A DNA stretch of 42,052 nucleotides, from positions 1 through 42,052 of the forward strand of contig JACRBX010000099.1 of the NCBI GenBank assembly GCA_016219225.1, in the 5' to 3' direction. Below, one piece after another: positions 8,366-41,549 of the stretch. This stretch comes from Deltaproteobacteria bacterium (GTDB lineage: Bacteria; Desulfobacterota; RBG-13-43-22). Within the stretch, counting starts at the first letter, position 1. The number at the start of each line of letters is the position of its first letter. A program made the position numbers and the translations under genes. The notes below the pieces were generated by a model. That model was not told the origin of the DNA. It searched no databases and saw only the letters and a list, made by a program, of their open reading frames with translations.

Positions 8366-8384
8366 GGGAAAACTCCTTTTTAGA

Positions 8385-8413
8385 GTTACAAGTTACAAGA
8401 TGCAAGTTTCAAG
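8385..8413. repeat. heptamer array upstream of the malic enzyme gene
   Basis: Units GTTACAA, GTTACAA, GATGCAA, GTTTCAA follow one another with a 7-nt period in the 132-nt gap before the malic enzyme start. No inverted partner is evident. Confidence 0.65.
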
Positions 8414-8497
8414 AATGAAAAACCTCAAAATGGCTATAGCCTCGTTCTGATATTTTCTTGTTTCGTCGGTAACCGAATCAGGCGGGCGAGGTTCAGC

Positions 8498-10275: not shown

Positions 10276-10575
10276 ATGCCGATTTATGAGTATGAATGCC
10301 AACAATGTAACCAGGTTACCGAAGCCATGCAGAAGTTCTCGGATGCCCCTTTAACCAAATGCCCCCGATGTTCCGGAAGCTTACGGAAAATGATTTCCCA
10401 AAGCAGTTTTCATCTGAAAGGCAGCGGCTGGTATGTAACGGATTACGCCCGCAAGGGGGATTCGGCAACATCAGGGAAAAAAGACAAACCTGCCGAGACC
10501 AGCCCCAAGACCCCGGAAAAAAGTACCGAAACCAGTACCAGTTCTCCCGCCAGCGGGACCTCGGAAACAAAATAA
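10276..10575 (+). CDS. FmdB-family zinc-ribbon protein
   Basis: This 99-residue protein begins MPIYEYECQQCNQ, the signature of FmdB/putative regulatory zinc-ribbon proteins. Cys pairs at about 8/11 (CQQC) and 29/32 (CPRC) should bind one zinc. The conserved GSGWYVTDYARKG segment follows at about 50-62. The tail (residues 65-99) is low-complexity Ser/Thr/Lys/Pro and probably disordered. The start is supported by AGGAGG 8 nt upstream. Functions in this family are poorly known, though FmdB was named as a regulator of formamidase/amidase genes. It is 20 nt behind the HExxH gene. Confidence 0.85.
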   Translation: MPIYEYECQQCNQVTEAMQKFSDAPLTKCPRCSGSLRKMISQSSFHLKGSGWYVTDYARKGDSATSGKKDKPAETSPKTPEKSTETSTSSPASGTSETK

Positions 10576-10581
10576 TAAAAA

Positions 10582-10648
10582 AGTGACGAGTGACGAGTGA
10601 CGCATTCAAACAAAACCAGTTCGATACGTTTTAACTCGTCTCTCGTCC
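10582..10648. repeat. inverted heptamer arrays after the FmdB gene
   Basis: Units of TGACGAG repeat at 10582-10603. An inverted array (ACTCGTC, TCTCGTC) lies at 10634-10648. The arrays would pair into a hairpin between FmdB and the GH57 gene. Confidence 0.65.
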
Positions 10649-17333: not shown

Positions 17334-17418
17334 GAATCCAGGAGTCGGAATCCAGAATAATGGTATATCTTTTATTGGGGTTGTTAATCATTCTGACTTC
17401 TGACTTCTGAATTCTAAA
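17334..17418. repeat. paired heptamer arrays, partly inverted
   Basis: GAATCCA, GGAGTCG, GAATCCA, GAATAAT run from 17334. TTCTGAC, TTCTGAC, TTCTGAA, TTCTAAA run from 17391. The two arrays are roughly complementary. They sit in the convergent gap between the acyl-CoA dehydrogenase and DUF218 genes. Confidence 0.65.
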
Positions 17419-17444
17419 ATTTCAAATATCTTTGGTTGGTTTTG

Positions 17445-26685: not shown

Positions 26686-26705
26686 TATGAAAAATTAGAG
26701 TTAAG

Positions 26706-26786
26706 GCTGCAAGGGGTGCCGGGAGATCGGCTGAGAAGAAAGACCCTTAAAACCTGATCCGGACAATACCGGCGGAGGGATGTGGC
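26706..26786 (+). promoter_or_regulatory. TPP riboswitch (THI element)
   Basis: The conserved blocks appear in order: GGGGTGCC (26713-26720), GGCTGAGA (26729-26736), ACCCTTAAAACCTGATCC (26743-26760), and GGACAATACCGG then AGGGATG at 26761-26782. P1 can form between 26706-26711 and 26781-26786 with wobble pairs. It binds thiamine pyrophosphate and controls the terminator just downstream. Confidence 0.95.
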
Positions 26787-26809
26787 TCAAGATAAGGTCT
26801 CCAAATTTA

Positions 26810-26902: not shown

Positions 26903-27697
26903 ATGAAACTCGATGAAGTGACTATTTCCCGGCTTATTGTTCAATCCTATCATGAGAAATTGCTTTCGCTGTTAGAGGTGGATGTGGCCATGGTCGGAGC
27001 AGGACCGGCTAATATGACTGCCGGGTATTATCTCGGCAAAGCCGGGTATAAAGCAGTTCTATTTGAATCCAAACTGGCACCTGGCGGCGGTATGTGGGGC
27101 GGGGGCATGATGTTCAATGAAGCCGTACTCCAGGATGACGCCCTTCCCATAGCCCAGGAAATGGGGATCAGACTGAAGGCCCGAGGGAACGGCTACTTCA
27201 CCTTTGACAGCGTGGAGGCGGCTTCCTGCCTGAGTTACCGGTGCATTCAGGCCGGCAGCGTGATCATGAATTGTGTAAAGGTTGAAGATGTCAGTTTCAA
27301 GGAGGTGAACGGAATCAAACGCATTTGCGGTCTGGTGATCAACTGGTCACCGGTAAAAAGTCTTGATCTGCATGTTGATCCCCTGAGCATTCAGGCCTCT
27401 TATGTGGTAGACGGGACAGGCCATCCGGCAGAAATTACTTCGCTGATTACCAGAAAAATGGGGGTCCGCCTGAATAACAGCACCGGCCAGGTCATCGGAG
27501 AGCTTCCGCTTTGGGCCCAGGAAGGCGAGTCCTTCACCGTGGCCAATACCAATGAGGTTTATCCCGGATTATTTGTCACCGGTATGGCGGCCAATAATGC
27601 TTACGGCGGACCGCGTATGGGCCCCATCTTCGGGGGCATGCTCCTTTCCGGAAAAAAAGCCGCTGAAATGATTGTCGAACGGATGAAGAAGGAGTAA
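26903..27697 (+). CDS. thi4: Thi4-family thiazole synthase, sulfide-using (His) type
   Basis: This 264-residue FAD/NAD-fold enzyme builds the adenylated thiazole precursor of thiamine from NAD and glycine. The dinucleotide motif VGAGPANMTAGYYL is at 31-44, followed by GGGMWGGGMMFNE (61-73) and the C-terminal GLFVTGMAANNAYGGPRMGP. In yeast Thi4 a Cys at the active site donates its own sulfur. In the archaeal sulfide-dependent type that position is His. Here the equivalent segment is SLDLHVDPL with His157, so free sulfide is the expected sulfur source, consistent with an anaerobe. AAAGGAGG precedes the ATG. The gene is controlled by the TPP riboswitch and terminator upstream. No other thi genes adjoin it. 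Confidence 0.93.
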   Translation: MKLDEVTISRLIVQSYHEKLLSLLEVDVAMVGAGPANMTAGYYLGKAGYKAVLFESKLAPGGGMWGGGMMFNEAVLQDDALPIAQEMGIRLKARGNGYFTFDSVEAASCLSYRCIQAGSVIMNCVKVEDVSFKEVNGIKRICGLVINWSPVKSLDLHVDPLSIQASYVVDGTGHPAEITSLITRKMGVRLNNSTGQVIGELPLWAQEGESFTVANTNEVYPGLFVTGMAANNAYGGPRMGPIFGGMLLSGKKAAEMIVERMKKE

Positions 27698-28722: not shown

Positions 28723-28796
28723 AGTTCGGAGTTAAGAGTTCGGAGTTCGGGGCCGGGAAAACAGGTTTTCACTCCGAACTAATTACTCCGAACCCC
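28723..28796. repeat. empty heptamer hairpin between ppx/gppA and guaB
   Basis: The left arm (AGTTCGGAGTTAAGAGTTCGG, 28723-28750) and right arm (ACTCCGAACTAATTACTCCG, 28771-28795) are near-perfect inverted copies with a 20-nt loop. The unit TTCGGAG repeats at 7-nt steps. Contains no gene. Confidence 0.85.
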
Positions 28797-28818: not shown

Positions 28819-30309
<1,491 letters not shown>

Positions 30310-30314
30310 AAAAG

Positions 30315-30343
30315 GCGTTCGTCGTTCAGCGTTCGGTGTTCGG
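30315..30343. repeat. left outer arm of the four-helix-bundle element
   Basis: 29 nt of 7-nt steps (GCGTTCG, TCGTTCA, GCGTTCG, GTGTTCGG). 26 of 29 bases are complementary to the right outer arm at 30880-30908. It begins 5 nt after the guaB stop. Confidence 0.85.
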
Positions 30344-30387
30344 AGCAGGAAGTGGAGAGATGGATCAGGAAATAGTTCGGAGTGATT

Positions 30388-30404
30388 AGTTCGGAGTTCG
30401 GAGC
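30388..30404. repeat. left inner arm of the four-helix-bundle element
   Basis: AGTTCGGAGTTCGGAGC is a perfect 17-nt complement of 30849-30865. The array extends to 30374 (AGTTCGGAGTGATTAG). Confidence 0.85.
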
Positions 30405-30417
30405 GAGGAATTGAGAG

Positions 30418-30777
30418 ATGGACGAGGAGAAGTTTGATTTTGAGAGCTTGATCGTTTACCAGAAATCATTGGAATATTATGATTTTATTTATGCGATCAC
30501 GAAACGATTTCCTAAAATAGAAATTTTTTCTTTAACGGATCAATTCCGCCGAGCCTCATCTTCCATATGTTTCAATATCGCTGAAGGTAGTGGTGGAAGC
30601 AAATTGGAATTTAAACATTTTCTCAAGATTGCCAGAAGGTCAGCAAGAGAATGCATTGCCATCACGGAAGTTTCCTTTCGGCAACAATATATTACTCAGG
30701 AAGAAAAAAATAGATCCAGAAAATATTGCTTGGAACTTTCAAAGATGTTAAATGGGTTGATAAAATCCATCAAATAA
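30418..30777 (+). CDS. four-helix-bundle protein of the 23S rRNA IVS-protein (S23/IVP) family
   Basis: This 119-residue all-helical protein begins MDEEKFDFESLIVYQKSLEYY. The FESLIVYQKSLE start, QFRRASSSICFNIAEGSG (about 42-59) and FLKIARRSARECIAITEVSF (about 66-85) are the family marks. Members are encoded in intervening sequences of 23S rRNA in Leptospira and Coxiella, and relatives (Avd) assist diversity-generating retroelements. Function otherwise is unknown. Here the gene lies between guaB and guaA within inverted heptamer arms on both sides, so in RNA it would sit in the loop of a hairpin. No reverse transcriptase or rRNA is nearby. Confidence 0.88.
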   Translation: MDEEKFDFESLIVYQKSLEYYDFIYAITKRFPKIEIFSLTDQFRRASSSICFNIAEGSGGSKLEFKHFLKIARRSARECIAITEVSFRQQYITQEEKNRSRKYCLELSKMLNGLIKSIK

Positions 30778-30848
30778 AAACTCCGAACAAGAATTATTTT
30801 CGAAAAGGGTTTTACTCTGAACTAAATCCGTCCGAAGGCGGAAAGATT

Positions 30849-30908
30849 GCTCCGAACTCCGAACTCAAAACTGAATTCGCCGAACGCCGAACGCTTAACG
30901 ACGAACGT
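30849..30908. repeat. right arms of the four-helix-bundle element
   Basis: The inner arm GCTCCGAACTCCGAACT (30849-30865) and outer arm (30880-30908, units CCGAACG) are inverted copies of the left arms. The outer arm ends 5 nt before the GAGGT ribosome site of guaA. A weaker CTCCGAAC copy lies at 30780-30787, just after the four-helix gene stop. Confidence 0.85.
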
Positions 30909-30922
30909 TCAATGAGGTACCC

Positions 30923-32482
30923 ATGGACATTCACAGTCAAAAAGTTCTGATCCTGGATTTTGGCTCCCAGACGACCCAGCTCATTGCCCGCCGGGTTCGG
31001 GAAGCCAAGGTCTATTGCGAGATCCATCCCTTTAACTGGCCCCTTAAAGAAATCAAGGCTTTTGCCCCCAAGGGAATTATCCTTTCAGGAAGCCCGGCCA
31101 GCGTTTATGATCCCCAGGCACCCTTGGCAGACCCGAAAATTCTGGATTTAGGCATCCCGGTATTAGGGATCTGTTATGGTATGCAATGGCTCACCCATCA
31201 ACTGAAAGGCCGGGTGGGCCGATCGGCCAAAAGAGAATACGGCCGGGTGGAACTTACCTTTCTGGATTTTCAGGACCTCTTCCATGGACTCGACAAGGAA
31301 GGAAACAAAGAAGAGCAGATCGTCTGGATGAGTCATGGAGACCGGATTGAGCGGCTGCCCAAAAATTTTACCTCCCTGGCCCAAAGCACAAATGCTCCGG
31401 TAGCGGCCATGGGTAACCAGGACCGGACCGTCTTCGGGGTCCAGTTCCACCCTGAAGTGGTTCATACCCCGGCCGGGCATCGTATTATAGAGAACTTCCT
31501 TTTTAAAATCTGCCGTCTGAAACCCCTGTGGACCCCCAGTTCTTTTATCAGACATACCCTGGCGGCCATACAAGAACAGGTGGGAAAAGAGAAGGTCCTC
31601 TGTGCCCTGTCCGGCGGGGTGGATTCCTCGGTCGTGGCCATCCTGTTGCATCAGGCCATTGGAAAGCAATTGACCTGTATCTTTGTTAATAACGGGGTGT
31701 TGCGCAGCCAGGAAGCCGAAAAAGTGGTAAAAATTTTCCGGGGTCATTATCATATCCCTCTGGTTTATGTAGATGCCTCAGCCCATTTTCTGAACCGCTT
31801 AAAAGGGATCATCGACCCGGAGAAGAAACGAACCATTATCGGCCATGCTTTTATTCGCATCTTCGAGGCCGAAGCCAAAAAGATCGGGCCGGTACGCTTC
31901 CTGGCCCAGGGTACTCTCTATCCGGATGTGATTGAGTCGGTTTCTTTTAAAGGCCCTTCAGCTACGATCAAGACCCACCATAATGTAGGCGGCCTTCCAG
32001 CCCGCATGAAATTAAAATTGATCGAACCCCTGCGGGAATTATTTAAGGATGAAGTCCGTGAAGTGGGCCGTAACCTGGGGCTGCCCGAGGAGATTGTCAG
32101 CCGGCAACCTTTCCCCGGTCCGGGGCTGGCCATCCGTATCTTAGGGGAGGTGTCCGAGGATCGTTTGGCTATCCTCCGCCAGGCCGATACCATTGTCTGG
32201 GAAGAGATGAGGAAGGCGGATTTGTATACCAGGGTCTGGCAGTCTTTCGCCGTTCTGCTGCCGATCAAAACCGTCGGCGTTATGGGGGACGAGCGGACCT
32301 ATGAACATGTCATCGCCCTCAGGATCGTCGACAGTCTGGATGCCATGACGGCGGACTGGAGCCGGGTCCCCTACGCCCTATTAGGCCATATATCCAACCG
32401 GATCATCAATGAGGTCAAGGGGGTCAACCGGGTCGTCTTTGATATCTCTTCCAAGCCCCCCAGTACGATTGAGTGGGAATGA
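30923..32482 (+). CDS. guaA: GMP synthase (glutamine-hydrolysing)
   Basis: GuaA aminates XMP to GMP using glutamine and ATP. It has 519 residues, the normal size. The N-terminal class I glutamine amidotransferase (about 7-200) has Cys in LGICYGMQW and the His-Glu pair in QFHPEVVHT. The ATP-PPase domain has [10 protein letters not shown] (about 229-238) and the C-terminal dimerisation domain ends in [11 protein letters not shown]. The GAGGT site 5 nt before the ATG is separated from guaB by the repeat element, so the two genes may be co-transcribed through it. Confidence 0.97.
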
Positions 32483-32489
32483 TAGCCAT

Positions 32490-32554
32490 AGTTCGGAGTT
32501 CGGAGTATTTAGTTCGGAGTAAAACCCAGTGCTCCGAACTCTAAACTCCGAACT
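32490..32554. repeat. empty heptamer hairpin between guaA and dnaE
   Basis: The left arm (AGTTCGGAGTTCGGAGT..., from 32490) and right arm (GCTCCGAACTCTAAACTCC, to 32554) are inverted copies. The unit TTCGGAG is identical to that at 28723 and 30388. No gene inside. Confidence 0.85.
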
Positions 32555-32585: not shown

Positions 32586-32618
32586 TTAACTTGGACTTTT
32601 AACTTGTAACTTTTAACG
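32586..32618. repeat. second heptamer array in the dnaE leader
   Basis: Units TTAACTT, GGACTTT, TAACTTG, TAACTTT, TAACGG step by 7 nt and end 6 nt before the dnaE ATG. No Shine-Dalgarno sequence is present in the leader. Confidence 0.65.
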
Positions 32619-32624
32619 GTTCTT

Positions 32625-36173: not shown

Positions 36174-36902
36174 ATGATTCCATATCAGGAACGGTTTTAC
36201 CGCAGCAAAATTCATACTCCGGATTGGGTCTCTTTCACCGTTCAGGTCAAGGAAACCGATCTCTGGATACGGGCCAGGAAAGACCTTTCCACCGAAGGAT
36301 ATGACCGGGTCTATCGATACCGCCATGTGCTGGAAACCTATATCCGCCAGCACCCTGAATTCAAAGAGACCCTCCAGCCCCTGGCCCTGGATCCCTTAGC
36401 CCCGCCCATTGTCCAGGCCATGCTCCAAGCCGGGCGGGCGGCCGGGGTCGGCCCTATGGCTTCCGTGGCCGGGGCCATGGCGGCGTTTGTCGGGCAGGAT
36501 CTGTTGGCCTTTTCTCCTGATCTTATCATTGAAAACGGGGGGGATTTATTTATCGCCAGCACCGAACCCTTGACGATCGGGATCTATGCCGGGGATTCTC
36601 CTATGAGCCAACGCCTCGGGATCCGTTTGGCTCCTTCCCCAAACCCGGTGGGACTCTGTACTTCGTCGGGGACGGTAGGGCATTCCTTAAGTTTCGGTCG
36701 GGCCGATGCCGTTACCATCTTCTCCCCATCGGCAATCCTGGCCGATGCCTTGGCTACGGCGGTGGGTAACCGGGTCCGGACCAAAGACGATATTCAACCG
36801 GCCCTGGAATGGGTGCAAAAGATTCCGGAGGTGCAAGGGGTTTTAATCATTGTCGGTAAGCAGATCGGGGTTTGGGGGGAAATGGAATTGGTGGCCATAT
36901 AA
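36174..36902 (+). CDS. UPF0280 family protein (ApbE-like fold)
   Basis: From the ATG at 36174 this gives 242 residues; the frame extends to 36144 through the repeat. It has GVGPMASVAGAMAAFVGQDLL (about 89-109) and IIENGGDLFIAS (about 116-127), the UPF0280 motifs that resemble ApbE flavin transferases. VGLCTSSGTVGHSLSFGRADAVTIFS follows, also ApbE-like. The product is soluble. Flavin or nucleotide binding is inferred from fold similarity, and no function is proven. It lies between dnaE and eno with repeats at both ends. Confidence 0.87.
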   Translation: MIPYQERFYRSKIHTPDWVSFTVQVKETDLWIRARKDLSTEGYDRVYRYRHVLETYIRQHPEFKETLQPLALDPLAPPIVQAMLQAGRAAGVGPMASVAGAMAAFVGQDLLAFSPDLIIENGGDLFIASTEPLTIGIYAGDSPMSQRLGIRLAPSPNPVGLCTSSGTVGHSLSFGRADAVTIFSPSAILADALATAVGNRVRTKDDIQPALEWVQKIPEVQGVLIIVGKQIGVWGEMELVAI

Positions 36903-36905
36903 AAA

Positions 36906-36935
36906 GGCTCAAGGCTCAGGGCTTAGGGCTTAAGG
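36906..36935. repeat. heptamer array GGCTCAA/GGCTTAG
   Basis: Four units (GGCTCAA, GGCTCAG, GGCTTAG, GGCTTAA) in the 126-nt gap before eno. No inverted partner. Confidence 0.75.
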
Positions 36936-36960
36936 ATTATTGAGTGTATGCCTATTGCCT

Positions 36961-41476: not shown

Positions 41477-41516
41477 TTGTATTATGGGTTGGGGATTATT
41501 TTTTTATTAATTCCAC

Positions 41517-41537
41517 AATCCGAAATCCGAAATCCGC
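41517..41537. repeat. heptamer array AATCCGA upstream of tRNA-Asn
   Basis: Three units (AATCCGA, AATCCGA, AATCCGC) in the leader of the tRNA gene, 12 nt before its start. Confidence 0.7.
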
Positions 41538-41549
41538 ATTGGTAATCAT

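Follow-up and report, generated by a model that had tools for sequence, protein, structure and literature searches.

To our knowledge, no function has been agreed on in decades either for S23/IVP proteins or for bacterial heptamer repeats. The two are found side by side in the 23S rRNA intervening sequence (IVS) of Coxiella, in which a 28-bp closing stem is cut by RNase III and tandem heptameric repeats, variable in number among strains, lie just upstream of the S23 open reading frame (ORF) (PMC4990558). Heptamers are also reported to be the commonest class of long repeat in most of the genomes surveyed (PMC4679880). Here, an S23 gene is described that lies within nested inverted heptamer arrays between guaB and guaA. 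The locus is probably a hairpin-borne selfish element, an intergenic counterpart of the 23S rRNA IVS with a RAYT-REP-like pairing of S23 protein and repeat unit. Such an element would be recognized by its own protein, cut by RNase III and mobile.

The guaB-guaA spacer carries an S23 gene within nested inverted arms

The window (the whole 42,052-nt stretch analysed) is contig C99 of the host assembly, G000, which comprises 5.93 Mb in 353 contigs and is 98.9% complete with 4.8% contamination. All features of the locus lie on the forward strand. Upstream is guaB (28840-30309; IMP dehydrogenase, named from the translation), for which the mechanical ORF begins at a TTG at 28825 and the ATG at 28840 is preceded by AAAGGAG; downstream is guaA (30923-32482; GMP synthase), the first 252 amino acids of whose product were matched in 58 of 59 relatives. 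As the sequence-only reading had proposed, the element was found to start 5 nt past the guaB stop codon (30309), and direct reading together with inverted-repeat comparison placed the S23 gene (30418-30777) inside two nested sets of inverted arms. The outer left arm (30315-30343) consists of tandem CGTTCGG-family units and pairs with the outer right arm (30880-30908), with 93% complementarity over 28 nt (30316-30343 with 30880-30907); the 29-nt arms with 26 of 29 positions paired, as originally noted, include a further base at either end. The inner left arm (30374-30404) is built of tandem AGTTCGG-family units, so that two unit families are present, CGTTCGG outside and AGTTCGG inside, and its 17-nt core (30388-30404) was seen on direct reading to be perfectly complementary to the inner right arm (30849-30865). 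By our own estimate, the chance expectation for a perfect 17-nt inverted pair in approximately 600 nt is about 1e-5.

Between the two left arms lies a putative leader relic (30344-30373; GAGAGATGGATCAGGA) that has a second start codon; an 80% direct repeat of 30331-30370 with 30389-30428 takes in this second leader and start. Judged from the sequence, the leader is probably left over from the beginning of an earlier S23 gene in the outer hairpin, whose start, as the direct repeat suggests, was replaced or duplicated by the present gene. Repeat comparison also revealed AGTTCGG-family pieces to the right of the gene (30778-30827), of which 30807-30827 is 95% reverse-complementary to 32507-32527 within a neighbouring empty hairpin. 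That hairpin, downstream of guaA (32490-32554, with 12 nt between the arms), and another upstream of guaB (28723-28796, with 24 nt between) were both verified as real inverted repeats, each with 23-nt arms that are 87% complementary. Both are of the inner, AGTTCGG unit family.

The 119-amino-acid product of the enclosed gene matched PF05635 (E 2e-30; 105.6 bits versus a cut-off of 33.8) and TIGR02436 (E 9.8e-30; 103 bits versus 24), and the proposed membership of this four-helix-bundle protein in the S23/IVP family was thus upheld by both curated cut-offs. PF05635 was its sole Pfam match, the protein is not a Y1 tyrosine transposase, and its relatives in the PDB are 2gsc and 2rld. S23 proteins are under purifying selection, with dN/dS values of 0.04-0.2 where computable and pN/pS values of 0.12-0.33 for pairs within the window clade; dN/dS was not computable for the window protein itself, because synonymous sites were saturated relative to its nearest relative.

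Folding of the spacer RNA (30308-30915) gave a predicted energy of -191.9 kcal/mol, compared with -147 ± 6.3 kcal/mol for 20 shuffled sequences (z -7.1), none of which was as stable as the real one. With Rfam at gathering thresholds, no known RNA family was detected in the spacer and no rRNA in the window, the element lying between guaB and guaA and not in a 23S rRNA gene. Elsewhere in the window, a TPP riboswitch (RF00059, 68.7 bits) was identified at 26702-26797, and the next listed ORF (26903-27697) is Thi4-type thiazole synthase-like by its translation.

The same sites hold different cassettes in related genomes

The guaB-guaA spacer was conserved in five of five genomes of family f1, and the CGTTCGG-family unit was also present at the orthologous site in G001, G003 and G004. 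The window genome (G000) has nested hairpins with an S23 gene; in G001 (L120) a CGTTCGT/CGTTCGG hairpin is loaded with a gene; in G004 (L138) the same unit accompanies a decayed gene; and in G003 (L062) the site is empty, holding an almost perfect and practically loopless CGTTCGG hairpin. G002 (L128) carries a different cassette, consisting of GGTATAC arms and an S23 gene of another clade. The suggestion that an IVS-like hairpin element occupies an mRNA spacer, in empty and loaded versions, was thereby supported, and at none of these sites was the gene found to be fixed in place without arms or with arms that do not pair.

Comparable differences were observed at two further sites. In the spacer between an S41-type protease gene and tsaD (both named from their translations), G000 (L007) has an ATTGCGG cassette and G001 (L122) a CGTTCGG cassette within the remnants of the ATTGCGG hairpin, and a site beside a response-regulator gene is occupied by different cassettes in G020 (L150) and G057 (L164). 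As the same sites hold differing cassettes, it was concluded that the whole cassette, arms and gene together, is the unit of exchange.

Inverted arrays frame S23 genes in many phyla

In the host genome, eight PF05635 matches were found, including two partial ones, of which one contains a stop. On reading of the flanks, inverted arrays were visible around all eight genes, the units mostly differing from gene to gene (GATCGGG, GGCTATA, AGTTCGG/CGTTCGG, AGTCAGG, TTTTGGA, GAGCTTT, ATTGCGG and CAGAATC). An arm score was obtained by aligning each gene's upstream flank with its reverse-complemented downstream flank; seven of the eight host genes scored at least 15, the weakest (L008) being not significant. 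With the threshold set at a score of at least 18, which is the 99th percentile for mismatched flank pairs, arms were detected at 39 of 68 S23 loci from 22 related genomes, compared with 8 of 340 control genes, three of the latter being guaB, the S23 gene and guaA of the window itself. Arrays of period 7, 8 and 9 were present at 38, 10 and 5 of the 68 loci, respectively, and at none of the shuffled flanks. The 29 loci below the threshold count against the reading as an element, although some of them are decayed, located at contig ends, or have arms that are short or overlap the end of the ORF.

A scan of GTDB genomes yielded 74 usable named loci; 54 of them reached a score of 18, and 60 a score of 16. 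The sample covered Bacteroidota, Planctomycetota, Acidobacteriota, Clostridia, Cyanobacteria, Atribacterota, WOR-3, Elusimicrobia, candidate phyla and others, and is no unbiased census, since its loci were selected for their resemblance to a single S23 clade. Most of 15 further S23 loci were likewise armed. The 5' arm contained more G than C at 94 of 107 armed loci, showing that the arms are oriented relative to the gene. The median number of units per arm at these 107 loci was 5.1, a figure that is suggestive only; short arms are dropped by the score threshold.

Insertion into existing hairpin loops was considered as a general rule and rejected, because nested outer arms are rare: a second, outer arm pair scoring at least 16 was detected at only three loci, two of which are long arrays of a single unit, and the nested cases recognized by eye were the window, L122 and L123.

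Several individual loci were recorded in their own right. By far the longest arms found, approximately 200 nt of GTGGACG units (score 154), surround the S23 gene of L241 (Planctomycetota), and the same unit occurs at L231 (Hydrogenedentota). At L205 (Thiodictyon), two nested arrays surround one S23 gene, the G-rich strand of the outer array being apparently opposite to that of the inner. At L165 (G032:C10, approximately 90500-90850), repeated partial S23 matches adjoin an intact S23 gene, as if its 3' end had been duplicated. Finally, an S23 gene of the host with AGTCAGG arms (L004, on C134) is flanked by a reverse-transcriptase ORF on one side and a cas1-like gene on the other, in what is apparently an RT-Cas1 CRISPR locus, Cas1 having been read from the translation only.

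The repeat unit follows the S23 lineage

Sharing of units was assessed for pairs of loci by comparing the upstream arm of the first with the reverse-complemented downstream arm of the second, a design chosen so that shared leader or coding sequence would not count. Among non-syntenic pairs, the unit was shared by 33 of 34 whose proteins were at least 60% identical, by 6 of 44 in the 50-60% range and by approximately 2% of those below 50%; the observed mean for pairs with at least 50% identity was reached in none of 5000 permutations. Across 141 loci from many phyla, sharing was seen in 28 of 29 pairs at 70% identity or more, in 55 of 134 (41%) at 60-70% and in 2-3% below 50%. Even among close pairs with saturated synonymous sites (pS of at least 0.7), 29 of 30 still shared the unit, from which it follows that the arms, unlike neutral sites, are kept or kept homogeneous. 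As many of the close pairs stem from a single clade with an 8-nt unit (AAGGATTC/AAGGGGTC), the number of independent clades is about seven, and the fading of the pairing below 60% identity counts against the element. Within these limits, the unit tracks the S23 lineage and not the location.

Co-variation of unit and lineage would also be expected if the arrays were autoregulatory sites, with S23 binding units in its own leader and controlling its own mRNA without any mobility. The 5' array does end near the start codon, a median of 39 nt before the conserved domain, and the purifying selection on the protein fits as well. Such control would, however, leave unexplained the inverted second array past the stop codon, the many dispersed arrays, the non-syntenic copies in unrelated families and the exchange of whole cassettes at one site, and autoregulation without mobility was judged quite unlikely.

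Related arrays are dispersed through the host genome

A 16-mer of the inner arm (AGTTCGGAGTTCGGAG, allowing one mismatch) occurred 240 times in the 5.93-Mb host genome and its reversed pattern not once, a difference that rules out chance as the source of the inner-arm unit. In a survey of 425 kb of host sequence (20 stretches plus the window), 74 period-7 arrays were found, compared with none in order-2 Markov sequence; other periods were almost absent, save for the multiple 14. Arrays of 7-9 nt units were dispersed in five genomes, again with none in the Markov control. By our own count, S23 arms matched the dispersed arrays of their own genome in 14 of 26 cases and those of foreign genomes in 34 of 228, the L003 count being inflated because the host sample includes the window itself. 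Copies of GTTCGGAGTTCGGAG numbered 254 in the host, 64 in G002, 20 in G001 and 0-3 in the sister genus; three other genomes had as many as 32 and the remainder almost none. This is mainly a genus-level expansion. Heptamer arrays of other families were also noted in the window, at 2848-2881, 8379-8414, 10574-10606, 17387-17427, 32590-32622, 36901-36945 and 41508-41541.

An inverted partner within 150 nt was present for 36 of 98 host arrays (approximately 37%; control 0). Many host arrays are therefore single and not hairpins, which again speaks against the reading as an element. It could accordingly be argued that heptamer arrays are an independent, slippage-prone, genome-wide repeat, and that S23 genes merely land or survive in non-essential spacers. 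The arrays are indeed abundant and mostly without an S23 gene, heptamers are reported to predominate among long repeats in most genomes surveyed (PMC4679880), and chance landing also predicts that arrays of a genome will resemble the arms of its own S23 genes. It gives no reason, however, to expect that the arms flanking a gene should be matched and inverted (39/68 versus 8/340) or that the 5' arm should be G-rich (94/107), and it is disfavoured by the pairing of unit and lineage at unrelated loci in different families (33/34, and 29/30 of the saturated pairs). This explanation was considered unlikely.

Candidate mobilizing machinery

Mobilization by a reverse transcriptase was considered and rejected, RVT_1 being unrelated to S23 copy number (7/22 versus 10/37, p 0.77). 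No RVT_1 match was present on the window contig, the matches in G000 being located on C97, C134, C245 and C126; S23-rich genomes often had none at all, including several near-complete genomes with 3-7 S23 genes.

A second candidate was a Y1 (HUH/RAYT) transposase acting in trans to move a REPIN-like system, with S23 as cargo or helper. Dispersed hairpins and one gene lineage per repeat family do resemble RAYT-REPIN (PMC3116915), and Y1_Tnp was present in 21 of 22 genomes with at least two S23 genes, compared with 14 of 37 others. A DDE transposase control was associated to a similar degree (19/22 versus 12/37), however, and the Y1 association may therefore only reflect mobilome-rich genomes. 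Furthermore, none of the Y1 genes examined had heptamer-array arms, several had different termini of their own, and G039 has 21 Y1 matches yet no S23 gene. With the control matching and no termini shared, mobilization by Y1 transposases was not supported, and a REPIN-like system of this kind was regarded as very unlikely. RAYT-like Y1 genes of approximately 310-320 amino acids with 19-35 nt inverted termini of the GGGGACGTTCGTGCAGAA type, in two families, were noted at L298, L304, L305, L314 and L315; these termini are probably the Y1 genes' own REP-like ends. For the S23 cassettes, no movement was seen and neither a target duplication nor a mobilizing enzyme was identified, which also weighs against a mobile element.

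A proposed S23-hairpin element

The build proposed for the element is an array of a 7-9 nt unit, a leader with a ribosome-binding site, the S23 gene and an inverted array of the same unit. A tight operon spacer would be a site at which it does little harm. The long RNA stem would probably be cut by RNase III, which would free the S23 message and separate guaB from guaA with the loss of neither, and would let the element stay in the transcript at low cost, and template switching in the palindrome could keep both arms alike. Maintenance of each lineage's unit over long times points to recognition of the cognate array by S23: its oligomer, which is pentameric in a solved relative, could read the tandem array either in its own transcript or in its DNA, and the persistence or spread of the element may depend on such recognition. 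On this view, dispersed arrays and empty hairpins would be non-autonomous relatives or leftovers of loaded copies, and the rRNA IVSs would be instances that landed in rRNA hairpins.

The occurrence of the same build in many phyla suggests a widespread, little-recognized kind of selfish element. A wider generalization is offered tentatively, as a real possibility: S23 genes across bacteria may be the coding copies of an unrecognized class of hairpin element whose S23 oligomer reads a lineage-specific 7-9 nt tandem unit, with many heptamer repeats as its non-coding members or remains and the 23S IVSs as its rRNA-inserted cases. The lineage-specific pairing of S23 and heptamers in many phyla would unite two old puzzles. 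An S23-hairpin element would also offer an origin for fragmented 23S rRNA, and, after RAYT-REPIN, it is a candidate for a second case in which a protein lineage and a dispersed family of hairpins have diversified together.

Comparison with known systems

Many-copy intergenic 7-nt tandem arrays are also known as the Geobacter metallireducens elements, the TAACTGA repeats of Beggiatoaceae and long simple repeats (PMC2700814, PMC4679880). In the excerpted text of those two sources no S23 gene is linked to the repeats, whereas here the arrays frame a gene as inverted arms, and in the open-licence PMC literature no paper was found that links S23 genes outside rRNA to heptamer arrays. The four-helix-bundle fold is related to that of Avd from diversity-generating retroelements, 2GSC and 4DWL having been described as homologous (PMC10053308), but the window protein scored only 21.9 bits against the NF033474 equivalog, for which the cut-off is 80 bits. 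As in REPIN-RAYT, one gene lineage accompanies each short-repeat family and gene-less copies are dispersed; the gene, however, encodes a small four-helix bundle and not a Y1 tyrosine transposase, and the arms are tandem 7-9 nt arrays in place of single REP palindromes.

The 23S rRNA IVSs of Coxiella and Leptospira likewise carry an S23 ORF in the loop of a stem of terminal inverted repeats (approximately 28 bp), and in the window, too, the S23 ORF is enclosed by complementary termini that form a long stem. The window element differs in its position, the mRNA spacer that separates guaB from guaA, and in having arms that are arrays of a lineage-specific unit on both sides, with related arrays scattered genome-wide. 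By comparison of the two layouts, the heptamer-S23 arrangement of Coxiella appears to be the same anatomy as that described here, and the link to the rRNA IVS is stronger than first noted, because tandem heptamers stand upstream of the S23 ORF in the Coxiella IVS as well.
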